NCBI GenBank assembly: GCA_003134695.1
Contig: PLCB01000044.1
Span: 50,900-83,534 of the forward strand
Reading direction: 5' to 3'
DNA from: Candidatus Zemynaea palustris
GTDB lineage: Bacteria; Vulcanimicrobiota; Vulcanimicrobiia; Vulcanimicrobiales; Vulcanimicrobiaceae
DNA length: 32,635 nucleotides
Under the pieces are notes generated by a model. The model saw only the letters and a list, made by a program, of their open reading frames with translations. It was not told the DNA's origin and did not search any database. A program made the position numbers and the translations under genes. Below are positions 9,168 through 31,104 of the stretch, piece after piece (positions within the stretch are counted from its first letter, which is position 1; the number at the start of each line of letters is the position of its first letter).

Positions 9168-9323
9168 ATGCAGCTGATTTGGACGCTCATCGTCATCCTG
9201 GTCGTCTTGTGGCTCGTCGGCTTCCTCGCGCACGTCGGGGGTGGCCTCATCCACTTGATCCTGGTCATCGCGCTCATCTTGCTTGTCTTCAACCTCTTGA
9301 CGGGTCGCGGCGCAAAAGTCTAG
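9168..9323 (+). CDS. small membrane protein, Lmo0937 family
   Basis: 51 residues. Seen: MQLIWTLIVILVVLWLVGFL, then AHVGGGLIHLILVIALILLV, then a short polar tail, GRGAKV. This gives two membrane helices separated by a glycine turn. Length, the GFLAHVGGGLIH turn and the tail match the Lmo0937/DUF5670-type mini membrane proteins, often stress-linked but of unknown function. A GGGAGGG purine run just upstream can serve as ribosome site, though spacing to the ATG is short. The stop overlaps that of the convergent PLP gene within a CTAG palindrome. Confidence 0.78.
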   Translation: MQLIWTLIVILVVLWLVGFLAHVGGGLIHLILVIALILLVFNLLTGRGAKV

Positions 9324-10288
9324 GCGATAATCGCCGCGTAGACGGCGGGATCCACGTTGCCGCCGCTGAGGACTACGCCGACGCGGCGGCCGCCTGCGCC
9401 GGCTTTGCCGGCAAGCAAGGCGGCGAGCGCCGAAGCGCCGCTCGGCTCGACGACGAGTTTGAGCCGCTCGAACGCAAAGCGCATCGCGGCGCGAATTTCA
9501 TCGTCGCTCACCGTGAAAAAGCCGGCGCACAATCGTTTCACGATCGGAAACGTCAACTCGCCGGGTGACGTCGTCTGCTGCCCGTCGGCGATCGTCTTCG
9601 GCACGGCGATTTCGATGCGCCGGCCTGCAGCGAACGAACGCGCGAAGTCATCGCCGGCTTCAGGCTCGACGCCGTAGAGTCCGATCCCCGGGCGGAGCGC
9701 GGTCGCGGCGAGCGCGCAGCCGGACAACAATCCACCGCCGCCGACCGGGACCAGCAGCATGTCGAGATCGGGGACGTCTTGGAGCAGCTCGAGCGCGACG
9801 GTCCCCTGACCGGCGATGATCTCCGGATCGTCGTACGGCGGGACGAGCGTCGCCCCGCGTTCGCGCGCGATTCCGCCGGCGATTTCGGCCCGGTTGTGCG
9901 TCGCGCGCTCGTAGAAGATGACGTCGGCGCCATATTCGCGCGTCGCCGCGACCTTTGCCGCGGGCGCGTCGCTCGGCATGACGATCGCCGCCGGCACGCC
10001 CAACAACTTCGCGGCCAGCGCGACGCCTTGCGCGTGATTCCCGCTCGAATACGCCACGACGCCGCCGGGGCGTTCTTCCGGCGTCAACTGTGCGATACGA
10101 TTATACGCTCCGCGAAACTTGAACGCGCCCATGCGCTGCAGGTTTTCGCACTTGAGAAACGCATGTGTCCCGGCCCGCGCGTCGAGCGTCCGCGACGTGA
10201 CGACGGGTGTGCGGTGCGCGACGCCGCGCAAGCGCGCGGCGGCCGCTTCGACGCCGGCGAAGGTGACCTCGCGCGACGCGATGGTCAC
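9320..10288 (-). CDS. PLP-dependent ammonia-lyase (serine/threonine dehydratase, threo-3-hydroxyaspartate type)
   Basis: 322 residues, GTG start overlapping the upstream stop by 4 nt (GTGA). Seen: Schiff-base lysine in FKFRGAYN (Lys57), substrate loop SSGNHAQG (81-88), phosphate-binding GGGG (183-186), then GVEPEAGDDFARSF and IADGQQTTSPGELTFP, and near the end SGGNVD. Known: this is fold-type II. The GVEPEAG and ADG-Q-T stretches are typical of the serine racemase/threo-3-hydroxyaspartate ammonia-lyase group and lack the C-terminal ACT domain of biosynthetic IlvA. It therefore probably has a catabolic role, deaminating a hydroxy-amino acid to a keto acid plus ammonia. A paralogue lies two genes upstream in the same operon. 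Exact substrate uncertain. Confidence 0.88.
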   Translation of the reverse strand: MTIASREVTFAGVEAAAARLRGVAHRTPVVTSRTLDARAGTHAFLKCENLQRMGAFKFRGAYNRIAQLTPEERPGGVVAYSSGNHAQGVALAAKLLGVPAAIVMPSDAPAAKVAATREYGADVIFYERATHNRAEIAGGIARERGATLVPPYDDPEIIAGQGTVALELLQDVPDLDMLLVPVGGGGLLSGCALAATALRPGIGLYGVEPEAGDDFARSFAAGRRIEIAVPKTIADGQQTTSPGELTFPIVKRLCAGFFTVSDDEIRAAMRFAFERLKLVVEPSGASALAALLAGKAGAGGRRVGVVLSGGNVDPAVYAAIIA

Positions 10289-10796: not shown

Positions 10797-11774
10797 TTAC
10801 CGTTTCACTTGCGGAGAGTTTCGGCGTTCATCGAGCTCACCCAGCACGGCGCGCAGTTTGCTCACGTCGATGTTGCCGCCTGAAACCACGCACACAACCT
10901 TGCCGCTCCCTGCTTCGCCCGAAAGCGCGCACGCTACCGAACACGCGCCCGCGCCCTCGGCGATGATGCGGTTGCGCTCGGCCAATAGCCCCAGCGCCGC
11001 GGCGACGTCTTCCACGCTCGCGACCAGCGCACCGTCAATCAGCCCTTGCGCGCGTTCGAGCATTTGCGGAAAGACGGTCTTGCTGCCGATGCCGTCCACG
11101 AACGACGGCTTATAGTCGACCACCTGCGGCGATCCCGCGGCGAGAGACGCGGCGAGTGGCGCGCCCGTCGCGACCTCGGCGGCGAAGAGCCGGCAACTGG
11201 GCTTGAGCGCTCGCACCCCCACGGCGATCCCACACGCCAACCCGCCGCCGCCCCACGGAATCACGATCGCCTCCACATCCGGCAAGTCTTCCAAAATTTC
11301 GAGCGCAATGGTCCCGTTGCCGGCCATGACATACGGATCGTCAAAGGCGTGGATGAACGTCGCGTCAACGCCCGGGTACGCGCGCTCCGCAAACGTCTGC
11401 CACCACCGCTCGAACGGGACTTTGATCACGCGCGCGCCGAGCCGCTCGATGGCTTTGACTTTTGTCTCCGGCGCCGTGTCCGGCGCAACGACAGTGCAGG
11501 GGATGCCCAGCTCGCGCGCGCGCCATGCTACTCCCTGCGCCATGTTGCCCGCCGACGCTGTGAGCACTCCGCGCGCCAGTTGCTCCGGCGGCATGTGCGC
11601 CATCGCGTTCGTCGCGCCTCGAATCTTGAACGAGCCGATCGGTTGAAGGTTTTCGAGTTTGAGATAAATCTCTACGGGCGCGTCGAACACGTTGAGCCGC
11701 ACCAGCGGCGTGCGGATGGCGGAGCCGACGATACTTCGGCGGGCTTGCTGGATTTCGTCGAGCGTCGGTAACAT
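10797..11774 (-). CDS. PLP-dependent threonine dehydratase-like enzyme (second paralogue)
   Basis: 325 residues. Seen: lysine motif SFKIRGATN (Lys50), substrate loop SAGNMAQGVA (74-83), glycine loop WGGGGLACG, and SGGNID near the C-terminus. The usual SxGNH is SAGNM here: Met replaces the His conserved in classical threonine dehydratases, so substrate or mechanism may differ from the downstream paralogue. No ACT domain. Known: fold-type II PLP enzymes of this size deaminate Ser/Thr or hydroxyaspartate, or act on other beta-substituted amino acids. It starts 3 nt after the stop of the preceding small protein gene. Family sure, reaction unsure. Confidence 0.85.
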   Translation of the reverse strand: MLPTLDEIQQARRSIVGSAIRTPLVRLNVFDAPVEIYLKLENLQPIGSFKIRGATNAMAHMPPEQLARGVLTASAGNMAQGVAWRARELGIPCTVVAPDTAPETKVKAIERLGARVIKVPFERWWQTFAERAYPGVDATFIHAFDDPYVMAGNGTIALEILEDLPDVEAIVIPWGGGGLACGIAVGVRALKPSCRLFAAEVATGAPLAASLAAGSPQVVDYKPSFVDGIGSKTVFPQMLERAQGLIDGALVASVEDVAAALGLLAERNRIIAEGAGACSVACALSGEAGSGKVVCVVSGGNIDVSKLRAVLGELDERRNSPQVKR

Positions 11775-12313: not shown

Positions 12314-13417
12314 CTATGCCGCGCTCTCCTCGGCTGCGGCGCTCGCGCTCGCGCCGACGTCGAGCCGCAAGAGTCCGATGCGCGAGTCGGCCATCCCGTA
12401 ATAGATGTCGTACGAGCGCGGTGCGTTCGGACGCGGGTCGATCCCGGTCGGAAAGACGACGTTGTTGACGACGCCGTGCGTCTCGTCGACCGTCTCCGGC
12501 CAAAAGACGGGCAGCGGCGAGCGATAGCGCACAACGTCGGGGCGCTCGAGATCGTGGACCACCATGCCGGCGCTATAACTCATTCCGATGCAGCGACCTT
12601 CGACGTCGTAGCGTCCGTCGACGCCGTGGAAGAGCGAGAACCAGCCTTCCTCGATACGCACCGGCGGCGTCCCCGCACCGTTCTTGATCGCCCCCCAACC
12701 CTGCGCGGGCTCGAGAACCAACACGCTTTCGGCGACCTTGAGCAGGTTGCGCCGATCGATCAGCGCCTGCTCGAGCGGAACGTAGGCGATGCGTGTGCCC
12801 TCGCGATCGCGCGGCGGAAGATCGAGAATGATGGGAACCGCGGCGCAGCCGTCGACCGACGAGATGTGCAACATCGGGCGGTGATAGAACGCGAAGCTCG
12901 GGACGCCGTTCGGCGAAACGACCGGCTCGGGGAAGAACGCGGCGTCTTTGTCGTCGCCGCACGGCAAGCCGGGCGCCGAGAAATCGGCCAAACCCAGACG
13001 TTCCCACGCGTAAGCGTCGTTCGAGATCGCGAACGCGATGCGCGGGCCATCGGGTCCGTACGCCGTGTACGCCATCACGTAGGCGTCGAGCAGGGGGATG
13101 AACGTGACGCGCGGATCTTCGCAGCCGTATCCGCCGGGTTTGTCGCGCAACTCGTACGGGGTCGACGGTTCGAGCGCGTAGCCGATGCGCCGAAACGTGA
13201 GCGACGCCCCGAGAGCGGCCGCTTCGGCGATTCCGATGCGCGAGTGATTTCCCGGCCCCACCATGCGTGGATAGAGCAGCAGTTTTCCGTCGCGATCGTG
13301 CGCCGTTGCCGGATTGAGGACGCCCTCGCGTTCGGCTTCGTCGCCGTTAGGCTGGAGCGCGACCCCGAGCCGCTTCACCGTTGCCTCGAGCGACGCGAGC
13401 GAAAACTGATTCATCAT
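12314..13417 (-). CDS. GH130 family glycoside phosphorylase
   Basis: 367 residues. Seen: the GH130 hallmark GYGCEDPRVTFI at about 97-108 followed by YVMAYTAYG, then repeated blade-like beta segments (FFPEPVV, FYHRPM, GWGAIKNGAGTPPVRIEEGWFSLFHGVD, YSAGMVVHDLERPDVVRYRS). These fit a five-bladed propeller. The Asp of the ED-P-R motif aligns with the catalytic acid of characterised members. Known: GH130 enzymes phosphorolyse or hydrolyse beta-mannosides, for example mannosyl-glucose or mannobiose. Start: tandem ATG-ATG at 13417/13414 preceded by AGAGG. No mannan transporter is adjacent, so the substrate is open. Three 11-bp direct repeats lie immediately upstream. Confidence 0.88.
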   Translation of the reverse strand: MMNQFSLASLEATVKRLGVALQPNGDEAEREGVLNPATAHDRDGKLLLYPRMVGPGNHSRIGIAEAAALGASLTFRRIGYALEPSTPYELRDKPGGYGCEDPRVTFIPLLDAYVMAYTAYGPDGPRIAFAISNDAYAWERLGLADFSAPGLPCGDDKDAAFFPEPVVSPNGVPSFAFYHRPMLHISSVDGCAAVPIILDLPPRDREGTRIAYVPLEQALIDRRNLLKVAESVLVLEPAQGWGAIKNGAGTPPVRIEEGWFSLFHGVDGRYDVEGRCIGMSYSAGMVVHDLERPDVVRYRSPLPVFWPETVDETHGVVNNVVFPTGIDPRPNAPRSYDIYYGMADSRIGLLRLDVGASASAAAEESAA

Positions 13418-13425
13418 CCTCTTGT

Positions 13426-13458
13426 TATCTCGGCTCTATCTCAGGTTTATCTCAGGAC
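13426..13458 (-). promoter_or_regulatory. three 11-bp direct repeats upstream of GH130
   Basis: Plus-strand units TATCTCGGCTC, TATCTCAGGTT and TATCTCAGGAC follow one another with exact 11-bp period; ATCTC begins at 13427, 13438 and 13449. On the coding strand they read CCTGAGATA-type. The outermost unit overlaps the stop codon of the upstream lipoprotein gene. An 11-bp period of direct repeats is typical of OmpR/PhoB-type regulator sites. The last unit is only about 9 nt from the GH130 ATG, so an RNA-level role or chance is also possible. Confidence 0.45.
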
Positions 13459-13914
13459 CGTCGACGCGATCGTCACGCCGTCGGGCGTCACGACGTCGAT
13501 CACCGAGCCGGTTCGGTAGACGGAGTTCGGGACGATCCAAAGCGTATAGGTGTGATACTCAGCGGTTGGTTCCCCACCATCGGCCGGCGCCCGTTCGAAG
13601 GCAACGATCCGAACGCGCTGTTCGTTCGCGCGAATCGAATCGATCACCTGACGCCAGCCGGTATGTGCATGGGGCCCCATGACCAGAATCACACCGAACT
13701 CGTGATTGAAACGAACCGGCGCGTGCAAACCAAACGCGTCCAAGTCTCGCCGGCTGCGGACGATGGCGACTTGGTTTCCGCCCGGCACGATTGTGTCGCC
13801 GGTTTGATACCTGTTGACCCGCACCTCGCGGCAGCCCGCCAGCACCACCGCCAGGGCGGCGGCGAGCAGGACGGTCCCTAAGCCGCGCCGGTGTGGGACC
13901 TCGCTGATCCCCAT
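13447..13914 (-). CDS. lipoprotein of unknown function
   Basis: 155 residues. Seen: a signal peptide with hydrophobic stretch TVLLAAALAVVLAGC and a lipobox LAGC (Cys28), so it is lipid-anchored outside the membrane. The mature part is beta-rich and ends in YHTYTLWIVPNSVYRTGSVIDV. The stretch from GVILVMGPHAHTGWRQV to the end faintly recalls the PrcB C-terminal domain of protease complexes, but I would not assign it. First gene of the six-gene minus-strand run; 29 nt separate it from GH130. Its start is close to the divergent two-cysteine gene. Confidence 0.72.
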   Translation of the reverse strand: MGISEVPHRRGLGTVLLAAALAVVLAGCREVRVNRYQTGDTIVPGGNQVAIVRSRRDLDAFGLHAPVRFNHEFGVILVMGPHAHTGWRQVIDSIRANEQRVRIVAFERAPADGGEPTAEYHTYTLWIVPNSVYRTGSVIDVVTPDGVTIASTVLR

Positions 13915-14720: not shown

Positions 14721-15395
14721 TTACCTCTCCGGGCACGCAGCCGCAAAACTGCGCGTCAACTTGTCGATGTTGGTAATCGCGCTCCCGACGACGATCGCGC
14801 TCGCACCCGCCGCAAAGGCAGCACCGGCCTGCTCGGGCGTTACGATCCCGCCCTCGCAAACCGCGAACGGATGGAGCGCGGCGAGCGCCCGCAGTAGCGC
14901 CAGGGCCGGAAGCGCGCAATCCCCCGTTTCGGACGTGTAGCCGGCGAGCGTCGTCGCGACCAGGTCGGCGCCGGCTTCCGCGGCTCGGCGCCCATCGTCC
15001 GCCGTCGCGCAGTCGGCCAGCGTGAGCCGTCCCCGCAAGCGCGCGGCTGCAACCAAGTCCGCCACCGTCGCGCCGCCGCGCCTTGTCCGCGGGGTCGCAT
15101 CGAATGCGATGACGTCGGCGCCAGCGCCGGCGAGTGCCTCGACTTCTTCCACCGTCGTCGTGATGTAGGGCGCCCGCGCCGAACGAACGCCTTTGAGCAG
15201 CCCGAGGATCGGCACGTCGACGGCGGCCCGCACCGCGCGAATGCGCTCAAGGCCCTCGATCCGCACGGCCGCCGCGCCGTTTTGTACGACGCAGCGCGCC
15301 AATAGCGCGATCGTCGCCGGCTCGCCGATCACGGAATCGTCCTCCGCTTGCACCGAGACGATCAGGCGGCCGCGCAAGCGTTCGAGATCGATCAC
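14721..15395 (-). CDS. nanE: N-acetylmannosamine-6-phosphate 2-epimerase (NanE-like)
   Basis: 224 residues. Start chosen as GTG at 15395, because it overlaps the kinase stop as GTGA and matches the family's N-terminus ([12 protein letters not shown]). Seen: TIM-barrel strands with [16 protein letters not shown] (catalytic Lys), [44 protein letters not shown] (catalytic Glu region) and the phosphate-binding [12 protein letters not shown]. Known: NanE converts ManNAc-6-phosphate to GlcNAc-6-phosphate in sialic acid and amino sugar use. Here it follows a sugar kinase, which could supply a 6-phosphate. No NanA, NagA or NagB is in the window. Last gene of the overlapping operon. Confidence 0.88.
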
Positions 15396-16330
15396 GCTTG
15401 CGTCTCGACGAGCGATCCGACGTCGAGCGCCGCATCGCGATACGCCAGCCGCAACGCGCCGACGACCGGATCGTATCTCGGCTTCACGATCGTCGCGGAA
15501 CGCTCGAGCGCGCGCATCGCCCACTTCCAATGTTCGTGAAACTCACTGTCGGAGAACATCCCGCCGAGCGGCGCGATGGGCAATTCGCGCGCGGCGCCGA
15601 GTCTATGATGCACGACGTGGACCAGCCGGGCCAGCGCATCGACGGCGCGCCGGCGCAGCTCGAGGGCGCCGCGCTCGCCCTCGCGCGCGGCCTGCAGCAC
15701 GACCGAGGCAAACCCGGCGAGCGCGCTCCGTGAAATCTCTCCGTGCGCGACGGCGTGCTGCAACGCTCGCAGCGACGCGACGCCGAAGTAGTCGAGTGCA
15801 CCCGCTCGCAAACCCGACGGGGAGCCGAAATCCTCGTCGCGCATCGCCCCGGCGATCGCCTCGCGCGCGATCCAAAACGCACTTCCTTCATCTCCGAAGA
15901 GATAACCCCAGCCGCCGGCCCGTGCGCGGTTGCCGTCGACGTCGATGCCGAACGCGACGCTGCCGGTCCCGGCGACGAGCGCGATCCCCGCCGAGCCGTC
16001 GAATGCGCCGGCGTGTGCGATCTCGGTGTCATGGACGACGCGAAAACGCTCGGACGACGCCGCCGGCGCCGGGACCAGCGATTCAGCCTCGTCGTAACCG
16101 CTCAGGCCGGCGACGATCGCCGCGAACCTCGTCTCCGCGGGGAGATTCGCGTGCGCCAGCGCGGCGCTCAGAACGTGGTCGAGGACCGCCGCTTGACGAG
16201 GCGAATCGCGGGATTCGCCGATCAGATCGGCCGGCGGCCCGCTCGCGCGTGCGACCACGATGCCGCGCTCGTCGCCGATCGCGCACACCGTCCCACTCTG
16301 CCCACCATCGACGCCGGCGCAGTATCTCAC
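15392..16330 (-). CDS. N-acetylglucosamine kinase-like, BadF/BcrA ATPase family
   Basis: 312 residues, GTG start overlapping the upstream stop as GTGA. Seen: N-terminal phosphate loop GVDGGQSGT (6-14), [12 protein letters not shown] with the catalytic-type Asp, then [30 protein letters not shown], and LGGMFSD in the C-terminal lobe. These are the ASKHA motifs of the mammalian-NAGK/BadF group. Known: members phosphorylate GlcNAc or related sugars at O6, while others are ATP-driven activators of dehydratases. The absence of Fe-S cysteines and the adjacent NanE favour the sugar kinase. Substrate may be GlcNAc, ManNAc or another hexosamine (inference). Confidence 0.86.
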
Positions 16331-16650
16331 GGCCGCAACGCGCGAACGGCGCGCTCGAAGAGGGCGGCATCGAGTCCCGTGTGGGCCATCGCGTAGGCAT
16401 GCGCTGCGCGTTCGTCGCGCACGGCGAAACGCGCGTGGTGAAGTTCGTGCCAGATCGCGAACGCGACGAAGCGAGCCGCGAAGGCGGCGCCACGCGCCGC
16501 GCGCAAGTCGGCGACCACACGGCTATCGATGGCGATGCTGCGCAGCACAGGATCGTACTCGGCGAGAATCGGGCGATGCCACGCGCCGGTCGCTACGATG
16601 CGGACGGCGACGCCGGCAGCGCCGGCTTCGCGCAGCGCGAGCGCGAGCAT
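16327..16650 (-). CDS. small HELHH protein, possible mini-zincin
   Basis: 107 residues. Its start overlaps the FAD oxidoreductase stop by 1 nt (TGATG) and its stop overlaps the kinase start (GTGA), so the frame is held by real genes on both sides. Seen: helix [19 protein letters not shown] with a HExxH motif, followed about ten residues later by [15 protein letters not shown], whose Glu could be the third metal ligand. The N-terminus has two beta-like segments ([19 protein letters not shown]). Known: HExxH plus a downstream Glu is the gluzincin zinc site. At this length it may be a minimal zincin, a non-proteolytic metal protein or a regulator. No signal peptide. No named family recognised. 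Confidence 0.72.
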
Positions 16651-18008
16651 CAGCGCGCCGCGACCGGCCGGCTTAGCGCACCGTCACGCGCCAGCCGGGC
16701 ACGCAACTCGTGCGTGTCGACCGCGCGCGGCTGGATCTTGCGCTCGGTGGCGATCGCCGCAGCCGTCCCGGCCGCTTGACCGAGCGTCATCACCGTCGGT
16801 GTCAGGCGCGTCGAGGCGAGCGCTTCGTGGGTCGTCGAGATGCAGCGGCCCGCGACGAGCAACCCGTCGATGCTCGCCGGCACCAGACACCGGTATGGAA
16901 TCTCGTACGCCGCGCCGGGCGGAAGGCGCTGCGTCGTCGTTCCGCTTCCCGAGGGATTGTGGATGTCGATCGGATACGCGCTGCGCGCGACCGCGTCGTC
17001 GAAGGAGTGCGCTTGCAACACGTCGTCGCGCGTCAACGTGTAGACGCCGACGATACGGCGCGACTCGCGGATCCCGACCTGAGTCGCCGTCGCGGAGAGC
17101 CGGCAATTCGCAAAACCCGGAACGTCACGCTTGAAGAACGCGAACAACTCCATGACTTGCGCGCGCGACTCGACCTCGGCGCGCGTCAGATCGTCCGGAT
17201 CGAGTGGATCGATGTCGACGACGCGCGTCATGTTGACGGTTACCTCGTCGGGATAGGGCGTCGCGAAAAACGACACCAGTTCGCGTTGAACGCTGACGTC
17301 GCCGCGCGCCCTGGCTCGTTCCCAGAGCGTGTAGAACCCGGCGACCGCCGTCAGCCGTTCGGGCGTTCGCTGCTCAACCGGAAGGCTCGTGCGCATCTCT
17401 TCGGGGTGCTCGCGCAAATAACGCGCCGTCTCGGCGAGATCGACGTGTGAAAGACGGAAGATCAAGGTCGCGGGCTGCACGCGTCCCTTGGCGTCGCCCT
17501 GCTGCACCGCGACGCCGGCGGAGGCCGCCACGTACGCGTCGGCGGTCGCGTCGATCGTCACCTTGGCGCGCTTTTCGCGCAAACCGCCAACCGTCGCGAA
17601 GCGCGCCCCGGCGATTGCGCCGGCGTCGTCGTGCAGCGCGTCGAGAAAGTAGGCGTGCAGGAGTAAATCGACGCGCGCCTCGCGCATCATCTCGAACAGC
17701 AACGCCTTGTGAATCTCCGGATCGAACGGCGTGATCGTCGCGACGTAATCGGAAGCGTCGTGGATGTGCCCGGGAGACGCTCCGCGCTCGGTCAGACGCT
17801 CGACGATCTCTTGCGCGATGCCGCCGACGATGCGCTCCTCGCCCGAATGGAAGGTCATCCACGGCCCGACCATCGCGGCGGTCGCCGTGCCGCCGAGAAA
17901 TCCGTAGCGCTCGACGAGCAGCGTGCTGGCGCCGTTGCGTGCCGCCGCAAGCGCCGCCGCGCATCCGGCATTTCCGCCGCCGACGACCAGCACGTCGTGA
18001 GATTTCAC
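16650..18008 (-). CDS. FAD-dependent oxidoreductase (PF12831 type)
   Basis: 452 residues from GTG at 18008. The open frame extends further upstream, but that part overlaps the divergent methyltransferase and shows no family sequence. Seen: DVLVVGGGNAGCAAALAAARNG at the N-terminus (FAD site; Gly10, Gly12 and Gly15), VERYGFLGGTATAAMVG, DATADAYVA, and C-terminal LLVAGRCISTTHEALASTR and QAAGTAAAIA. These are the hallmarks of the FAD_oxidored family common in polysaccharide-use loci. Known: biochemical roles are largely undefined; some relate to sugar or polysaccharide oxidation. It heads a four-gene operon with mini-zincin, kinase and NanE, suggesting oxidation of an amino sugar derivative (inference). 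Confidence 0.85.
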   Translation of the reverse strand: MKSHDVLVVGGGNAGCAAALAAARNGASTLLVERYGFLGGTATAAMVGPWMTFHSGEERIVGGIAQEIVERLTERGASPGHIHDASDYVATITPFDPEIHKALLFEMMREARVDLLLHAYFLDALHDDAGAIAGARFATVGGLREKRAKVTIDATADAYVAASAGVAVQQGDAKGRVQPATLIFRLSHVDLAETARYLREHPEEMRTSLPVEQRTPERLTAVAGFYTLWERARARGDVSVQRELVSFFATPYPDEVTVNMTRVVDIDPLDPDDLTRAEVESRAQVMELFAFFKRDVPGFANCRLSATATQVGIRESRRIVGVYTLTRDDVLQAHSFDDAVARSAYPIDIHNPSGSGTTTQRLPPGAAYEIPYRCLVPASIDGLLVAGRCISTTHEALASTRLTPTVMTLGQAAGTAAAIATERKIQPRAVDTHELRARLARDGALSRPVAAR

Positions 18009-23024: not shown

Positions 23025-25163
23025 TCAGGCGGCCCGCGGGATCATCACCACGTGGACGGCCGTCGCCGGCGGTAAGCCGCGCAGTTCTTCGCAGGCCAGC
23101 GCGACGACGTGTGCGATCTCGCCGAGCGTCCCGAGATCGGCGATGCGCGTTCCGTAGATCAGGTGCGTCTCGGGCAACGCGCGCCCGACGTCGCCGAATG
23201 TCGTCGCGTCCTCGAGCGCGTCGGCCAGCACGTTTTCGATGCGCGCCACCGTGGTCGAGCGCAGTTTCAAGCGGCGCGCCACCAGCCGCACGACGCCGGA
23301 TCTGTCGACGACGCAGCCGTCGCAAAGGCCGCGGCGTCCTTCCGTTACGTGGAGCGCAAGCGAACCGGTAGACGCCGCTATCCGCAGCGCTTGGGCAGGG
23401 ACGTGCAGCGCGCGAGCCGCGGCTTCACCGCGCTCGAACTCTGAGGCGTCGCGCCGCCCAGCGTCGCTTGCGACGCTCGCCGTCGCGCCCGATGCGGTCG
23501 CGCGCACAAGATTCCGTCGTACGTCGACGTCGACGACCGCCTCCACCGAGTCGGGCGCGGCTCCGGCGGCGACGACCCGCTCGATCGCTTCGCGCCGGAT
23601 GCGGACGATGTCCTCGGCCTGGGGATTGACGACGGTTCGTTCGACGACGTCGCGCACGAGCGCGAGCGCGACCCCGAGCGGCGAAATCACTTCCGCGTCG
23701 CGCGCGAGGCGGTACTGGTGTCCCCACCGACTCGCCGCGAACGGGATCAGCGCCGCGGCGCCTCCGCCGCCGCCGACCAATTCGACGTCGCGCCGGTCGA
23801 GTTCGTAATCGTCGATCAATTCGTCGATCGCGGCGCGCAACGTTTCGGCGGCGCGCGCGAGCATCGCCGTCGCCAGCGCTTCGGCTTCGCACTCGAACCG
23901 CTCGGCGACCAGCGCGAACGCGCGACGCGCGCTTTCGGCGTCGCCTTTCGCGAAGGCTCCGTCGGAAACGTAGCCGAGAAGGTTCGCCGCGCAGGTCGGT
24001 GTCGGCGCACAACGCGAGCCGTCGGCCAGTTCGAGCGCGACGTAATCGTCGGGATCGCCGTGCTGCGGTTGAACGAAAACGACGCGCGCCCTTTGGAGTT
24101 TTTCGGGGCCGGTGAAACACGCGTAGCCGAGGCCGGCGATGTGCGCCGAACGCGGACCCACGTCTCGCAACGCGGCGATCGAGCGACCCTGCGGATCGGC
24201 TCGCAGCAAACTGCCCCCGGCGACGCCAAGCGTGCGGACGTCGAGCATGCGCAGCATCGTGCGATGCCCGCCGACGCGCGCCGGGCGCATCTGCGGTATC
24301 CCGCGCCGGATGACCGAGCAGTCGGTGCTGGTCCCGCCGACTTCGACGAAGATGCCGTCGGTGACGTTTTCGTGCAAGAGCGCGCCGGCGATGCCGGCGG
24401 CCGGCCCCGAGAGCATGGTGAGAATCGGGCGGCGCGCGACCTCGCGCACGTCCATGACGCCGCCGTCGCTGCGCATGATCATGAGGGGCACCGCGATTCC
24501 GGCGCGCTCGACGGAGCCGGCCGTCATGTTCGCGGTGCGCAGCATCGTCGGTAAGATCGCCGCGTTGAGGACGGCGGTGCGCGTCCGCGCGCGTAGACCG
24601 TACATCGACGAAACCTCGTGCCCCGAGGTCGCGGGGAATCCCCGTTCGCGCGCGAGCGCGACCGCGGCTCGTTCGTGCGCCGGATGATCGACGCCGAACG
24701 CTTCGCTCGCGGCGATCGCTTCCACGCCGGCATCGGCGAGCGAGGCCGTCGCGCCGGAGATCGCGGCCGGGTCGTCGGCGCGAGCGAAGCGAATCTCGGG
24801 CGCCAGAACCTTGGCCGCGCCGAAGCGGATCGGCGGGACGCGGAGTTGCGCTCGCGCGAACGGGGCGAAGGGTCCGTGTAAGCCGACGATCCCGACGCGT
24901 GCGACGTCGCCTTCGAGCAACGCGTTGGTGGCCTGAGTCGTCGAGTGCGCGATGAAGGCGATCCGGCGCGCATCGATCGCCGGATTCTGCAGCAGACGCT
25001 GCAGCCCGTCGACGATCCCTGCGGCGACGCCCTCGGCCGCGCGGTGGGTCGTCGGAACTTTGATGCTCGCGACCACCTCGCGCGTCGCCGCATCGACCGC
25101 GACGACGTCGGTAAACGTTCCCCCAACGTCGATGCCGACGCGAAGCGTCGTCAGCGCCGTCAT
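23025..25163 (-). CDS. hydantoinase/oxoprolinase family protein (HyuA-like)
   Basis: 712 residues from ATG 25163, which overlaps the transporter stop as ATGA; upstream frame extension lies inside the transporter gene and is not used. Seen: N-terminal phosphate loop RVGIDVGGTFTDVVAVD, HSTTQATNALLEGD, YGLRARTRTAVLNAAI, RSDGGVM, LSGPAAGIAGA and VEVGGTSTDCSVI. These are the hydantoinase A N- and core domains (ASKHA-like ATPase). The second half departs from classic HyuA: it reads GPRSAHIAGLGYACFTGPE where the GPxSAGAxPGPAC stretch is expected. Known: the family opens cyclic amides with ATP, or forms one subunit of carboxylases. No HyuB partner is in the window, so it may act alone or use a distant partner. 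Substrate unknown. Confidence 0.85.
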   Translation of the reverse strand: MTALTTLRVGIDVGGTFTDVVAVDAATREVVASIKVPTTHRAAEGVAAGIVDGLQRLLQNPAIDARRIAFIAHSTTQATNALLEGDVARVGIVGLHGPFAPFARAQLRVPPIRFGAAKVLAPEIRFARADDPAAISGATASLADAGVEAIAASEAFGVDHPAHERAAVALARERGFPATSGHEVSSMYGLRARTRTAVLNAAILPTMLRTANMTAGSVERAGIAVPLMIMRSDGGVMDVREVARRPILTMLSGPAAGIAGALLHENVTDGIFVEVGGTSTDCSVIRRGIPQMRPARVGGHRTMLRMLDVRTLGVAGGSLLRADPQGRSIAALRDVGPRSAHIAGLGYACFTGPEKLQRARVVFVQPQHGDPDDYVALELADGSRCAPTPTCAANLLGYVSDGAFAKGDAESARRAFALVAERFECEAEALATAMLARAAETLRAAIDELIDDYELDRRDVELVGGGGGAAALIPFAASRWGHQYRLARDAEVISPLGVALALVRDVVERTVVNPQAEDIVRIRREAIERVVAAGAAPDSVEAVVDVDVRRNLVRATASGATASVASDAGRRDASEFERGEAAARALHVPAQALRIAASTGSLALHVTEGRRGLCDGCVVDRSGVVRLVARRLKLRSTTVARIENVLADALEDATTFGDVGRALPETHLIYGTRIADLGTLGEIAHVVALACEELRGLPPATAVHVVMIPRAA

Positions 25164-27181
25164 CCGCGGAACGGTGCGCCGAGAGCGACCGTCAGCGTTT
25201 GCTTCCCGCGCGTGACCTCGAAGGTGTGGGGCTGACCGTCGTAAGCGCGACGTTGCGTCTGGAACGTTCCGTATTCCCACCAATACTTTCCGTCGAGTCT
25301 CACGACGATATCGTCGGTACGCAAGCCGGCGAGATACGCCGGCCCGCCTGGTCGTACGAAGGCGCGCATCTGTCCATCGACGGTCTTGAACAACGAATAG
25401 AAATACGTCGGCGTCGAGCCGCCGACGTACGCGACGCCGCGCTCGAGCAGCGCGGCGGCGACGTCGGGATTCTCGACGCGCCAGGTGCGAAACCGGAAGA
25501 GCGCCGCCAGTCCGGCGCTTTCGAGCTCGGGCGTTGCGGGCGGCGCCATTTGAATGTCGCGAACGACGTGCCACTGATCGATCGGCCAGCCGGCGCAGTC
25601 GCGCAACTCGAGACCGGTGTCGAAAGAGGCCGGCGCACCGTCGCGCCCTCCGAGCAGTTCGACGCGGAAAACCAGCAGCGCGGCATAGGGCGAACCACTG
25701 CAATCGCGCGCCGGCGGAACGGCATCGAGCGCAACGGCGGCGACGTCTTTCCAGCCGCCGGCGATTTGGCGGTAGACGATCTTCGCGGCCGGCTTCGAAA
25801 GATCATCGGCCGGCGCGATGCCGAGCGTTCGCGCCGCGGCCGGCGGCGCATACAAACCCGGCGGCGCAGCGGAGAGCGGAGTTTGCGCGGCGGCCGGCTG
25901 GGCGAAGGCGAACGACGGGGCGCCGAGCAGCCTCGACCCGAAGAGTGCCACGGCGAGCGTCGCCAGCGTCGCGACGGCAACCTGGTAGGGCAGCGTCAGC
26001 TTGGTGATCTCGTCGACGCGGACGCCGGTGTAGTTCGCGACCCAGACGTTTTGCGTATTGGTCGGGTCGCAGACGTTTTGCACTTGCACCACCGCCATGA
26101 TCGCGGCGACCAAGGTCACGGCGGGAAAGACGCCGAGCCCCGCCAGCACCGTGTAGACGGCAATCCCCACGCCGAATGGATTGAGCGGCCCGCGATAGAG
26201 CGCGAGCGGGCTCAGCAAACCGAACAGCACCACGTACGCAATCGCGTTACGCGGTGCGAGTGCGCCGACGAGCGGAACGAGCGCGGCCTTCACGCTTGGT
26301 AAGCCGGTCGCCGCAAGCAACATGCCGATTCCGATGAACAACAGGACCGCCGGCGCGACGTCTTCGATTCCGCGGATCGCGGCGGCGACGAGCGTCTGGA
26401 CAGCCTGGCGCGGTCGTGTCGTGAGCACACCGTACAGTGCGGCGATCGCGAACGCGACGATCGGGTCGATCTTGAGCCAGAAGTAGAGCACGATCGGCAA
26501 GATCGGGGTCACGAGCGCAAAGGCCGGAACGCGGCGCTTCGCGAGCGGTTCGTCGCTTTCGAGTGCCCAGGTCGCGTAACCGCGGTCCGAACGAAACCGT
26601 ACGCAAGCAAAGATGACGAGCGCGACGAGATCGATCGCCGCCAGGACGTAGGCGTACGGCTGCAACTGCTCGCGCGCGACGCCGAAGGTGGTCGTGTAAA
26701 ACTTCCATTGCGTCAAGTTGAAGATGAAGCCGAGTGCGAACGCAAGCATGAACAGCGTCGCCGCCGTCCGGCGCGAGACGCCGATCGTCATCATGATCGG
26801 CAGCACGATCGAACCGACCATGATGATCGCGCCGAGACCGGTTAGCGACGTGAACAGCAGAGCGACGGCGGCACAGAGCGCCAGCCCGAGCAGCGCCGGA
26901 TTGTCACCACCGAACTCGGCGGCGTAATTGACGATCGTCTCGGCGATCCCGGTCGAGAGCGCGACGCGCGAGAGCAGCGCACCGAAGATCACGGTCACAA
27001 AGACCGGCGCGAGCTTCACCGACCCTCCAACGATGACCGCCGCCAGATCGCTCGGACCGGAGCCGGCGACCGCCGCCATCCCGAGCGCCATCAACGGCAC
27101 CGCGAGGAGTGCCGGCAGAATGCGAGCGTACATCAGCGCGGCGCAGATCGCGAAGATCGCGAGCATCGCCAGACCGATCAT
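25160..27181 (-). CDS. IT-superfamily-type transporter fused to a C-terminal PDZ-like domain
   Basis: 673 residues. Seen: residues 1-435 are hydrophobic with about eleven or twelve helices, including LLFTSLTGLGAIIMVGSIVL, GFIFNLTQWKFYTTTFGV and VQVQNVCDPTNTQN; the layout recalls citrate/gluconate/dicarboxylate carriers. From about 445, an Ala/Pro linker leads to a soluble part. The last 90 residues read as a PDZ core: MRAFVRPGGPAYLAGLRTDD, then IVVRLDGKYW and HTFEVTRGKQTLTVAL. Fusions of a secondary carrier to PDZ are uncommon. The topology should place the tail outside, as part of the linker looks like a secreted protein (FAFAQPAAAQT), but this needs testing. It is 1 nt from the GH20 gene and overlaps the hydantoinase, so co-expressed. 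Substrate unknown. Confidence 0.75.
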   Translation of the reverse strand: MIGLAMLAIFAICAALMYARILPALLAVPLMALGMAAVAGSGPSDLAAVIVGGSVKLAPVFVTVIFGALLSRVALSTGIAETIVNYAAEFGGDNPALLGLALCAAVALLFTSLTGLGAIIMVGSIVLPIMMTIGVSRRTAATLFMLAFALGFIFNLTQWKFYTTTFGVAREQLQPYAYVLAAIDLVALVIFACVRFRSDRGYATWALESDEPLAKRRVPAFALVTPILPIVLYFWLKIDPIVAFAIAALYGVLTTRPRQAVQTLVAAAIRGIEDVAPAVLLFIGIGMLLAATGLPSVKAALVPLVGALAPRNAIAYVVLFGLLSPLALYRGPLNPFGVGIAVYTVLAGLGVFPAVTLVAAIMAVVQVQNVCDPTNTQNVWVANYTGVRVDEITKLTLPYQVAVATLATLAVALFGSRLLGAPSFAFAQPAAAQTPLSAAPPGLYAPPAAARTLGIAPADDLSKPAAKIVYRQIAGGWKDVAAVALDAVPPARDCSGSPYAALLVFRVELLGGRDGAPASFDTGLELRDCAGWPIDQWHVVRDIQMAPPATPELESAGLAALFRFRTWRVENPDVAAALLERGVAYVGGSTPTYFYSLFKTVDGQMRAFVRPGGPAYLAGLRTDDIVVRLDGKYWWEYGTFQTQRRAYDGQPHTFEVTRGKQTLTVALGAPFRG

Positions 27182-27182
27182 A

Positions 27183-29207
27183 CTACTGACGCCGCACCGC
27201 TATGCCGAGAGCGTCCTCGAAGGCCGGCAGCATCTTGTGAAGCGTGTAGTCGCGGTACGTCACCGCATCGATCCGATCGGCGCGTACGATGGCGCGCTGC
27301 GCCGCGAGGTGGTAGCGCTCGAGGACGCTCGACTCGTGGCTCGACCGATTCTCGTACTCCCACGCGTGCTTCACGAGCGGCTCGAGTTCGAGCAACGCGT
27401 CGCGCTGCTCCCAAAAGGAATACTTGGCTACGTTGAGCGCTCGGTAGACCAGATCGTCGTGTTTGCCGTCGGCGTTCGTCCTTGCGTCGTCGTAATACGA
27501 GCGCGCCTCGGAAGCGATCTGGAAGTTGCGCCCGAGCAGGTCGTAGCGGCGCGCCGCGAACTGCATCACCGCGGCGGCGTTGGCGTGCAGCGGCGGAGGC
27601 GGCACGACGCGCGCGTGCGCGATCACGCGTTCCGCCGCGAGTCGCAGAGCCGCGAGGTCGACGGCCTTCGTCAACTCGGGGAACGCGAACGGATCCGACC
27701 AGAACAGAATGTCGCCGGCCGAGCGTGGGCTGTTCTGCAAGAGCGTGCGCGCCCGTCCTAGGTCGGCGAGATCGGCGGCGTAGCGCATGTCGTCCGTCCC
27801 AAAGAACGCGCGCGGAAAATCGCGCCGAAAGCGCGCGATGTCGACGTCGCCCTGTTCCCACGCACTCGCAGCGGCGTAGATCACCGGATACCACGTGGCT
27901 TCGAAGAGCGTCTCTCCGTCGTCGTGCCAGACGGTTTGAAATAACCCGAGGACGTGCGCGCGCTTTCCCTCGCCGACGAAACGGCCGATGTTGGGCAACG
28001 CCCGGTCGAGGTCGGGGTAGATCTCGTTCCAGTTGAGCGCACCGGGCGCGACCATCTGCTCGAAACCGCCCTTCTTGATCCGCTCGATGTACGGCAGGTA
28101 CGTCGGCTCGCTGCCGTAGTGCCAGTTGACGAAGACGAGCGATTTTGGCAGCACGCCGAAGAGCTCGGGATGCCGCGTGACCGCGTCATCCCAGATCATC
28201 GGCCGCGCGTGCGAGTGCGCGATGACGTACTTTGCCGTCTGTACCACGTGCTTGATGTAGACCGGGCCCTCGCCCGACGCGGCGACGAGCGGCTCCGCCT
28301 GGCCGTGGCCGAGATCGATCGGCTCGTCGGACCCGATGTGGAAGAAGGGTGCGTCCGGGACGGCGCGTAGCTCGTCTGCGATCAGATCGCGGACGTAGCG
28401 TTCGCCGCCTGAATTCGCCGGCGAGATCAGGTAGCCGTGCGGTAATTCCGCCAGCGGCGCGTAGCGTTCCCAGCGCAGCGTGTTGTGCATGTGCGCGAAG
28501 GTCTGCTGCTCGGGGATGAACGCAACGTGGAAACGGCGCGCGTACGCGTCGAGCTCGCTCAGTTGCGCCGGGGTGATTCCGTCGAGCGGTGCCGGCAGCG
28601 GATGCTTCGGGTCGGCGAAGACGTGCTCCATGTACGGCGAGTAACCGTTCATCTTGAAGGCTGCGATCGTGCGAATCCGCTCCTTGAAGTAGCGCATCGT
28701 GGGCAGCGGCCCGCGCGAAACGTCGTCGGAAAGAATACGCCACCGGAGCGCCGGCTCGTCCTCGACGTGCACGCAAGGCAGGCGCCACACCCCGTCGACG
28801 TTGCGCGCGAGCTGCGCGATGGTGGCGAATGCGTAGAATTCTCCTGCGTGACTGCGTTTGGAGATCGTCACGGCCTGCGGCGTTATGTCGAGCGTGTACA
28901 TCTGATCGTCGCCGCCGGACCGGTACGTGCCGCTCCACACGCGAACGCCGGGATCGAGCGAAGCCGGCGCTTCACGAATACCGAGCGCGTTCCAGCGTTC
29001 CGCGACGAGTTCGCGTGCCGCCGCGTCGTACGGCTTCATGGCACGCAGCACGACGTCGGCACGCGGGCAGAGCGAATCCGACGAGAGCCACACCTGCGAT
29101 GGACGCGGAACGATGCCCAGATCCACCTTATCGGTGGTCTCCACACTCGCTGCGACGCCAAGCGTGGAAAATACGAGCAACACCAGAAACGCGAGAGACT
29201 TTCTCAC
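27183..29207 (-). CDS. GH20-type beta-N-acetylhexosaminidase (secreted)
   Basis: 674 residues, GTG start at 29207 with GGAGAG close upstream. Seen: signal peptide VRKSLAFLVLLVFSTLGVAA. A small N-terminal alpha/beta domain (YTLDITPQAVTISKRS) leads to a TIM barrel: RWRILSDDVSRGPLPTMRYF, FKMNGYSPYMEHVF, FIPEQQTFAHM, and the catalytic pair in FFHIGSDEPIDLGHG (Asp-Glu near 293). ALNWNEIYPDLDRALPNI follows, then a helical C-terminal domain (about 430-674). Known: GH20 enzymes remove terminal GlcNAc/GalNAc by substrate-assisted catalysis, with Asp-Glu as the key pair. GSDE replaces the common GGDE. It heads the five-gene operon and is divergent from the symporter gene across 88 nt, which might import the product. 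Confidence 0.83.
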   Translation of the reverse strand: MRKSLAFLVLLVFSTLGVAASVETTDKVDLGIVPRPSQVWLSSDSLCPRADVVLRAMKPYDAAARELVAERWNALGIREAPASLDPGVRVWSGTYRSGGDDQMYTLDITPQAVTISKRSHAGEFYAFATIAQLARNVDGVWRLPCVHVEDEPALRWRILSDDVSRGPLPTMRYFKERIRTIAAFKMNGYSPYMEHVFADPKHPLPAPLDGITPAQLSELDAYARRFHVAFIPEQQTFAHMHNTLRWERYAPLAELPHGYLISPANSGGERYVRDLIADELRAVPDAPFFHIGSDEPIDLGHGQAEPLVAASGEGPVYIKHVVQTAKYVIAHSHARPMIWDDAVTRHPELFGVLPKSLVFVNWHYGSEPTYLPYIERIKKGGFEQMVAPGALNWNEIYPDLDRALPNIGRFVGEGKRAHVLGLFQTVWHDDGETLFEATWYPVIYAAASAWEQGDVDIARFRRDFPRAFFGTDDMRYAADLADLGRARTLLQNSPRSAGDILFWSDPFAFPELTKAVDLAALRLAAERVIAHARVVPPPPLHANAAAVMQFAARRYDLLGRNFQIASEARSYYDDARTNADGKHDDLVYRALNVAKYSFWEQRDALLELEPLVKHAWEYENRSSHESSVLERYHLAAQRAIVRADRIDAVTYRDYTLHKMLPAFEDALGIAVRRQ

Positions 29208-29295
29208 CTCTCCGTGATTCGCGCGACCGCGCACGTGTGCCCCTCGTCCGAGGCGAAGGCGGGAAGGCGTCACCGGCTGCGGAAACGACGCCGCG
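29208..29295. promoter_or_regulatory. divergent intergenic region, GH20 / symporter
   Basis: This 88-nt region lies between the starts of GH20 (-) and the symporter (+) and must carry or share both promoters. I see a near-palindrome GCACGTGTGC at about 29234-29243, but no clear -35/-10 boxes. Shared control would fit release and uptake of the same sugar, but is inference. Confidence 0.35.
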
Positions 29296-31104
29296 ATGAC
29301 GCTCACCGCCGTCGACTGGACCGTCGTCGCCGCGTTCTTCGCGATCAATCTCGGCATCGGTCTCTACTACGCGCCGCGCGGCGGAAAGAGCCTGAGCGAG
29401 TTTTTCTTGTCCGGCCGCAGCGTCCCGTGGTGGCTCGCCGGCATCTCGATGGTCGCGACCACGTTCGCGGCCGACACCCCGCTCGCGGTTACCGGTTTCG
29501 TTACGACTCACGGCATCGCCGGAAACTGGCTGTGGTGGTCGTCGGTGATGTCGGGCATCCTCACCGTCTTCTTCTTCGCGAAGTTGTGGCGGCGCTCGGG
29601 CGTCCTGACCGACGTCGAGTTCATCGAACTGCGCTATGGCGGAAAAGCCGCGGCGGCCCTGCGCTTCGTGCGCGCGATCTTCCAAGGCGTGCTCGTCAAC
29701 ACCATCATTATGGGTTGGGTCAATCTCGCGATGGCGAAGATCCTGACGCTGACCTTGCACGTCCCTAAACTCGAAGCGCTGGGGGTCTGCTTGGTGTTCA
29801 CGACGATCTACGTGATGCTGAGCGGTTTGTGGGGCGTGCTGGTCACCGACGTTCTGCAGTTCGCCGTCAAAATGACCATGGCGATCGTCCTCGCGGTCGT
29901 CGCCGTCGCCGCCGTCGGCGGGATCGGCGCACTCGAATCGAAGCTCGCGCTCGTCGACGCTGCGCGCGGCGGCGGCGGATCGGTGCTCGACTTCTTCCCC
30001 ACGACCAACTCGGCGTGGCTGCCGCTGTTGACGTTCGTGACCTACATTGCCGTGCAATGGTGGGCCTCGTCGTATCCCGGCGCCGAGCCCGGCGGCGGCG
30101 GCTACATCGCGCAACGCATCTTCAGCGCGCGCAGCGAGACCGATTCACTCGTCGCGACCCTGTTCTTCAACGTCGCGCACTACGCGCTGCGACCCTGGCC
30201 GTGGATCCTCGTCGCGCTCGCCGCGCTCGTCCTTTATCCGCACGGCGTCACCGGCACCGACGGTAAAGTCGATCCCGAACTCGGCTACATCCAAACGATG
30301 ATCGACTACTTGCCGGCGTGGTTGCGCGGGTTGATGATCGCCGGCTTCATCGCGGCCTTCATGTCGACGATCGGGACACACCTCAACCTCGGCGCTTCGT
30401 ATCTGACCAACGACGTCTATCGACGTTTCATCTCGCCGCAGAATTCAGAGCGGCATTACGTCGTCGTCTCGCGCCTCATGACGGTCGTCGTCATGGTGCT
30501 TTCGATCATCCCGGCAATGTTCAACGACCGAGTCGGCTTTCTGTGGATCTACTTGTTCAATCTCACCGCAGGGGTTGGGCTCGTGATGATCCTGCGCTGG
30601 TATTGGTGGCGAGTGAACGCATGGAGCGAAATTTCGGCGCTCGCCACTTCGTTCTTCGTTTCGAACGCGCTGCTCCTCATGCAGTCGCTCTTCCACGTGT
30701 TCAAAGAGGACAACGCGACATCTGAGATCTTGCTGATCACGGTCCCCGTGACGACGCTCGTTTGGCTGACGGTCACGTATCTCACCAGGCCTGAGTCCGA
30801 GGCGACGCTCGTCCGCTTCTACGAGCGCGTCCGGCCCAGCGCGGCCGGCTGGCAACCGATCGCGCGCGTCGCGCGACCGGGCAGTGGCAACGAATCGCTC
30901 GGCCTCAACGCGCTCGACTGGCTCGCCGGCTGCGGACTCGTCTACGGCGCGCTGTTCGGGATCGGTCGAGTCATCCTCGGCGACGTCATGCAAGGCGTCG
31001 GGTATCTCGGCCTCGCCGCGTTATGTGGCGGCCTGATCGCCTACAACGTTAACCGGACGCGCGAGCCGCAGCCGCGGGAACGATCGCAGGCTGCCGGGCC
31101 TTAA
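29296..31104 (+). CDS. sodium:solute symporter (SSS family)
   Basis: 602 residues with about 13-14 membrane segments. Seen: DWTVVAAFFAINLGIGLYYA in helix 1, then GKSLSEFFLSGRSVPWWLAG and ISMVATTFAADTPLAVTG. The latter is the conserved SSS segment that lines the Na+ site. Later: VQWWASSYPGAEPGGGGYIAQRI, MIAGFIAAFMSTIGTHLNLGASYLTNDVYRRF (the Na2-site helix, Ser/Thr-rich). The C-terminal tail is hydrophilic. Known: SSS carriers import sugars, amino acids or other small organics with sodium. Divergent from GH20; a sugar such as GlcNAc is a reasonable guess but unproven. The 3' end overlaps the convergent gene by 56 nt. Confidence 0.88.
   Translation: MTLTAVDWTVVAAFFAINLGIGLYYAPRGGKSLSEFFLSGRSVPWWLAGISMVATTFAADTPLAVTGFVTTHGIAGNWLWWSSVMSGILTVFFFAKLWRRSGVLTDVEFIELRYGGKAAAALRFVRAIFQGVLVNTIIMGWVNLAMAKILTLTLHVPKLEALGVCLVFTTIYVMLSGLWGVLVTDVLQFAVKMTMAIVLAVVAVAAVGGIGALESKLALVDAARGGGGSVLDFFPTTNSAWLPLLTFVTYIAVQWWASSYPGAEPGGGGYIAQRIFSARSETDSLVATLFFNVAHYALRPWPWILVALAALVLYPHGVTGTDGKVDPELGYIQTMIDYLPAWLRGLMIAGFIAAFMSTIGTHLNLGASYLTNDVYRRFISPQNSERHYVVVSRLMTVVVMVLSIIPAMFNDRVGFLWIYLFNLTAGVGLVMILRWYWWRVNAWSEISALATSFFVSNALLLMQSLFHVFKEDNATSEILLITVPVTTLVWLTVTYLTRPESEATLVRFYERVRPSAAGWQPIARVARPGSGNESLGLNALDWLAGCGLVYGALFGIGRVILGDVMQGVGYLGLAALCGGLIAYNVNRTREPQPRERSQAAGP

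Follow-up and report, generated by a model that had tools for sequence, protein, structure and literature searches.

The locus analysed here raises the question of what a protein of 107 residues, carrying the metal-site pattern of a gluzincin, might do between a flavoenzyme and a kinase-like protein, and whether its gene is genuine. It lies in a stretch of 32,635 nucleotides from Candidatus Zemynaea palustris (GenBank assembly GCA_003134695.1, contig PLCB01000044.1, positions 50,900 to 83,534), referred to below as the window. The gene is real, as demonstrated by profile matches across families, purifying selection on the protein, and invariant metal-site residues.

The small zincin gene and its operon in the window

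The zincin gene (16327..16650) is read on the minus strand from 16650 to 16327, where an ATG start and a stop codon delimit a frame of 107 aa. The WHELHH sequence provides His68, Glu69, and His72, the downstream glutamate is Glu80, and an invariant Glu31-Tyr32 pair precedes them. The stop codon of the flavoenzyme gene and the ATG of the zincin gene have one base in common (TGATG), and at the other end the zincin stop and the kinase start share 4 nt; the frame length, both overlaps, and the WHELHH with its downstream Glu, all described in the first-pass annotation, were confirmed from the sequence. Longer plus-strand frames overlie the same bases; ranking by codon-position G+C chose the zincin frame and not those, and both the changes at codon positions and the dN/dS ratios given below agree with the minus-strand frame. 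The HExxH motif is present in 2 of the 224 stop-to-stop frames of at least 80 aa in the window, so that the motif alone is weak evidence. The highest 19-residue Kyte–Doolittle mean was 1.47, at the N-terminus (0.78 in the orthologue L054), and the protein is probably cytosolic.

Upstream, a minus-strand gene (16650..18008, with a putative GTG start at 18008) encodes a flavoenzyme of the FAD_oxidored family (PF12831, E 7e-128). Downstream on the same strand lies the gene for a kinase-like ATPase of the BadF/BadG/BcrA/BcrD family (15392..16330; PF01869, E 8.1e-27), which meets the PF01869 cut-off (94.8 vs. 31.5 bits) and resembles the GlcNAc kinase (NagK) model NF046058 at a score far under its cut-off (64.9 vs. 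370 bits). The next minus-strand gene (14721..15395, with a putative GTG start) encodes a protein of the ManNAc-6-phosphate 2-epimerase family, NanE, which scored over the curated cut-offs of both PF04131 (164.9 vs. 27 bits) and NF002231 (226.3 vs. 189 bits). Since the zincin gene overlaps both of its neighbours and NanE comes next, the four genes are probably translated together.

Farther upstream, positions 23034-31101 contain minus-strand HyuA, transporter-like, and GH20-like genes and then a divergent sodium:solute symporter gene (PF00474), which make up a second, amino-sugar-like cluster near the operon. HyuA (23034..25100, minus strand) is a hydantoinase/oxoprolinase matched by PF01968 and PF05378. 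The adjacent minus-strand gene (25163..27181) was read from its sequence as a putative membrane transporter; no transporter model matched its product, and PDZ matches were under the cut-off. Adjoining it is a minus-strand gene encoding a GH20-type beta-N-acetylhexosaminidase-like protein (27186..29357; PF02838 and PF00728 above cut-off). Downstream of NanE, a GH130 protein (PF04041) and a small gene are located at 12317-13914, and two PALP-family pyridoxal-phosphate enzymes (PF00291) at 9323-10288 and 10800-11774, with one frame between them. Relatives of the GH130 protein and of the small gene were seen at L047:15830-17319, about 5 kb downstream of NanE; L047 is one of the few loci that have no oxidase genes.

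Conservation, selection and gene order among relatives

A search with the single zincin sequence gave a match in 29 of 60 related genomes, the window's own counted. A profile built from 29 members (A1) matched a zincin in 99 of the phylum's 149 genomes; among the rows listed, these were 95 of the 99 genomes of the window's family (f1), its own included, and all four genomes of a second family of the same order (f2). No match was obtained in the 14 genomes of a third family of the same class (f3), and another 30 genomes lacking a match are not itemised by name. Two of the 95 f1 matches were weak: that in G005 (E 1.6e-6) is an unlinked zincin, described below, and that in G081 (E 7.5e-4) comes from a partial gene cut off where the contig ends. 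A second profile of twelve closer members (A2) identified 43 zincin loci in public genomes, of which 33 carry the title Candidatus Eremiobacterota or Eremiobacteria and 10 are labelled simply 'bacterium'. Being based on short conserved patterns, the A2 scan is limited to close relatives and does not prove absence from other lineages. A scan of public-genome contigs with the window zincin sequence alone gave no match where the closer-relatives profile succeeded, and a tblastn search of plasmids and phages with the orthologue L054 as the sole query gave no match up to E 0.01.

Seven residues, Gly22, Glu31, Tyr32, His68, Glu69, His72, and Glu80, were invariant in all 29 aligned A1 members, which upholds the gluzincin metal pattern proposed initially. 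When 74 rows (65 distinct sequences) were considered, HExxH and an upstream [SA]E[YF] motif were present in 65/65 and E-x-x-A in 64/65, the sole exception, L008, retaining the aligned Glu. Because 43 of the 74 rows were gathered with patterns that included parts of these motifs, the wider count is biased and the 29 aligned sequences are the fairer sample. The spacing from HExxH to the Glu is variable, with a longer loop in most members than in the window's branch. The first-pass annotation had named two outcomes that would tell against it, HELHH not being conserved in orthologues and the frame being absent there; both were looked for, and neither was found, given the invariance of the HExxH residues and the f1 and f2 matches reported above.

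The protein is under purifying selection. Among nine near relatives (L057, L058, L059, L061, L062, L063, L064, L066, and L068), dN/dS was 0.01-0.07 in 36/36 pairs, with dS above 1 in many; the ratio was 0.13-0.33 among four palsa-site sequences (6 pairs) and 0.03-0.13 among four others (6 pairs). Between the window and G001, the zincin genes showed 24, 28, and 49 differences at codon positions 1, 2, and 3, respectively (dN 0.29, dS 0.90).

The four-gene operon is near-invariant among relatives. The zincin is flanked in all 43 public loci, on one side by a flavoenzyme match ending no more than 64 nt away and on the other by a kinase match beginning no more than 27 nt away. The initial description of a zincin locked in a kinase/epimerase operon thus held, and the proposed check for the same operon in other genomes was positive. 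NanE follows in 40 of these loci, and the remaining three contigs end within 915 nt. In 20 of the 29 single-sequence matches (L030-L049, some of whose contigs are identical to those of public loci), the kinase adjoins the zincin throughout, NanE comes next in 19 (the last contig ends), and the flavoenzyme is adjacent in 18, the other two being a contig end and the interrupted locus of G012. In the latter, about 3 kb with three frames (L038:5901-8944) separates the flavoenzyme from the zincin, which is still 79 nt from the kinase despite the insertion. A further 16 loci (L162-L177) have the kinase within 132 nt in every case, the flavoenzyme within 74 nt in 15, and NanE following in 15, with one contig end accounting for each exception.

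Zincin presence also tracks NanE in the genomes tested. NanE was searched for in 28 genomes: G000, six of f1 in which the zincin match was weak or lacking, 14 of f3, and seven others of the phylum. Five were positive (G000, G005, G081, G098, and G128). G000 and G081 carry the operon zincin, and the G128 contig starts inside the kinase; G015 and G022 gave neither a NanE nor a zincin match. The remaining two, G005 and G098, belong to one genus (g5) and have a flavoenzyme–kinase–NanE operon that lacks the zincin, their flavoenzyme and kinase matches lying just 18 and 43 nt apart. Both genomes encode a divergent small zincin elsewhere (L158:8301-8654 and L190:1686-2012), matched by only these two of 148 genomes and bearing HECFH, SEF or AEY, and E-x-x-A-H motifs. 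It is situated between HyuA and a protein about 38% identical to the window's transporter-like protein. This arrangement fits a zincin that has left the operon and still accompanies the wider module, and it represents one event in one genus. Because the tree cannot place the g5 zincins and carries a long-branch warning, a relocated orthologue and a separate recruit both stand as explanations.

As for the wider surroundings, many relatives have HyuA and transporter-like genes upstream of the operon; HyuA precedes it on the same strand in 32 of the 43 public loci, and of the 11 others, four (L054, L060, L083, and L092) have 6 kb of room. HyuA and the transporter were rejected as strict partners of the zincin, as G015 has both and no zincin match, and G027 has a zincin and no close HyuA. 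Genes for an M20 peptidase and an amino-acid permease also occur nearby, in the window or in relatives. Together with the GH20, transporter-like, and HyuA genes, this setting suggests a putative role in the breakdown of amino-sugar-containing polymers. A term search of the main text of the paper on the cultured relative Vulcanimicrobium alpinum (PMC9758169) found no mention of N-acetyl, glucosamine, or chitin. A cox2 match was found within 4.3 kb downstream in 36 of the 43 public loci; of the seven remaining, six are on contigs that stop early. At L042, the one locus checked, cox2 with a cytochrome c domain and cox3 are accompanied by a putative cox1, so called by reading. Cytochrome oxidase was likewise rejected as a strict partner, given that L060 has no cox2 downstream despite 6 kb of room and no oxidase cluster comes after NanE in the window.

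Predicted fold and related families

AlphaFold2 models of the window zincin, computed with 31 relatives (pLDDT 90.6), and of the orthologue L054 (pLDDT 89.5) both predicted a short sheet, a helix carrying HExxH, and a later helix carrying the Glu. The structure prediction proposed at the outset as a check thus yielded models that resemble minigluzincins and IrrE. In the Foldseek list of PDB entries for the window model, selecase ranked first, with E values of 0.05 and weaker. VIA-align, which only re-aligns entries of the Foldseek list, gave selecase Z 8.7 (3.1 Å, 95 residues aligned) and 8.5, projannalysin 8.5, the abylysin zymogen 7.1, YbeY 6.7, and IrrE 6.7, the last under the caution level. 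For the L054 model, PprI came first (Z 8.8, 2.7 Å, 87 residues aligned, 23% identity), followed by a mycobacterial regulator at 8.2 and IrrE at 8.2 and 8.0; selecase reached 5.3. The entries with Z of at least 6 comprised minigluzincins, IrrE/PprI, CapP, a predicted zincin, a transcriptional regulator of M. tuberculosis, and YbeY. Because Z values of about 8 are modest and the two models differ on the nearest group, we describe the protein as a minimal gluzincin, IrrE-like, and assign it to neither family.

Sequence profiles lean toward M78. The window protein had no Pfam match up to E 10 and did not pass the gathering cut-off of PF06114. With E up to 1, PF06114 matched 10 of the 29 A1 members (best E 4.4e-5), the window protein not among them, and 14 of the 27 sequences in a partly overlapping set (best E 5e-6). 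In a PF06114 search of 21 genomes, one operon zincin (G011) reached the 22-bit cut-off, at 22.3 bits when its neighbours in the frame were counted in. Zincin profile searches of the PDB returned no significant match, and no minigluzincin at E up to 10; a viral structure library returned nothing at an E of 0.001 or lower, and the entries ranked highest there are IrrE-like phage proteins. A leucyl aminopeptidase model (NCBIfam, best E 0.0073) was rejected, as the window protein scored 15 bits against a cut-off of 471 and matched at the model's C-terminal end. The zincin is probably a distant relative of the ImmA/IrrE (M78) peptidase domain.

Three known groups invite comparison. Like the minigluzincins (selecase, proabylysin, and projannalysin; MEROPS M95), which aligned to the window model with Z 8.7 to 7.1 over 92-95 residues (11-16% identity in the full-length alignments), the zincin consists of one domain, some 105-110 aa long, that contains HExxH and a Glu; the tetrameric selecase 4qhh gave Z 5.1 over 67 residues. 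The L054 model, in contrast, scores Z 5.3 and below against the minigluzincins, and to our knowledge none of these occurs in a sugar operon. With the ImmA/IrrE peptidases (M78, PF06114; PprI, CapP) the zincin shares a similar HExxH followed by E-x-x-A, and its YDP strand motif is like that of 8slm (E 1.1). The usual partner of ImmA/IrrE peptidases is a DNA-binding regulator, whereas the immediate neighbours of the zincin are the flavoenzyme and the kinase in 43/43 loci, and its setting is metabolic. IrrE/PprI and ImmA have been described as repressor-directed proteases of the DNA-damage response and of mobile elements. The mini-zincin Acel_2062 (PMC3890501) is a minimal zincin of about 110 aa similar in size to ours (Z 6.6 to the window model), although its motif is of the Asp type and that of the window zincin of the Glu type. 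Minimal zincins are therefore already known, and it is the setting, not the kind, that is new: the small zincin had been called unexpected, which stands for its place in the operon and not for its size of about 100 aa. Among the titles and abstracts listed by literature searches on Eremiobacterota metalloproteases and on the operon genes, none dealt with the zincin or the operon, which does not prove absence in print.

Possible functions of the minimal gluzincin

The reading we favour, with a probability of roughly 0.45, is a free-standing minimal gluzincin, IrrE-like, that works as a narrow-specificity peptidase on one protein of the module. A single domain of about 100 residues would hold a catalytic zinc through His68, His72, and Glu80, Glu69 would act as the general base, and cleavage would mature or switch one module protein. 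The target may be a co-translated enzyme or an unlinked regulator, its membership in the module being presumed. As the ligands and the general base are invariant, a working peptidase is likelier than a relic, and a classical protease–repressor pair inside the operon is unlikely because the gene overlaps those of enzymes and none of the four encodes a DNA-binding protein. It is from the invariant site and the lack of a repressor in the operon that we infer narrow proteolysis of a module protein.

A silent or slow zincin could instead be a structural or regulatory subunit that binds, for instance, the flavoenzyme or the kinase. Such a complex would fit the overlap with both neighbours in the window and the tight adjacency in relatives, and the M. 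tuberculosis transcriptional regulator appears in the fold lists; we take this protein to be PrpR, in which an IrrE-like domain is used in metabolic control. A silent scaffold would nevertheless not need the general base Glu69, invariant in 29/29, and the g5 small zincin is linked to neither the flavoenzyme nor the kinase, which leaves a subunit role on balance unlikely. Decidedly unlikely is a peptidase serving as a catabolic enzyme of the pathway, whose substrate would be a small metabolite (for instance, the peptide amide within fragments of cell wall or glycopeptide taken up by the cell). Genes for GH20, HyuA, an M20 peptidase, and an amino-acid permease are found close by, in the window or in relatives, and the g5 small zincin comes after HyuA, but neither HyuA nor the transporter is a strict partner, as G015 and G027 show.

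A metal-dependent sugar-modifying enzyme, e.g., a deacetylase, is very improbable; the operon position is the one argument for it, none of the fold entries with Z of at least 6 is titled as sugar-active, and a NagA-model match exists elsewhere in 13 of the 14 genomes searched (over the cut-off in three). The weak NagA-model matches say little, since the model also matches all 14 control genomes. PF01182, found in 14/14 genomes, presumably also covers 6-phosphogluconolactonase, and matches to neither model track the operon, as the f3 genomes G041 and G044 match too. Of the two functions suggested in the first-pass annotation, a regulatory protein remains better than a sugar-modifying one. Scarcely credible is an operon serving the downstream cytochrome oxidase genes, with the zincin as an oxidase assembly factor, for despite the frequent cox2 match the four genes stay together in the window and in L060, where no oxidase cluster is found.

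A bolder proposal is that the IrrE-like domain has become an obligate, free-standing part of an amino-sugar pathway, fixed across two families of one order, which cleaves a metabolic enzyme as a switch with no repressor involved; we consider this rather unlikely. A single-domain version fixed in a metabolic operon would put the IrrE/ImmA-type domain to a new use, and the operon itself points to a handful of candidate substrates open to individual testing.
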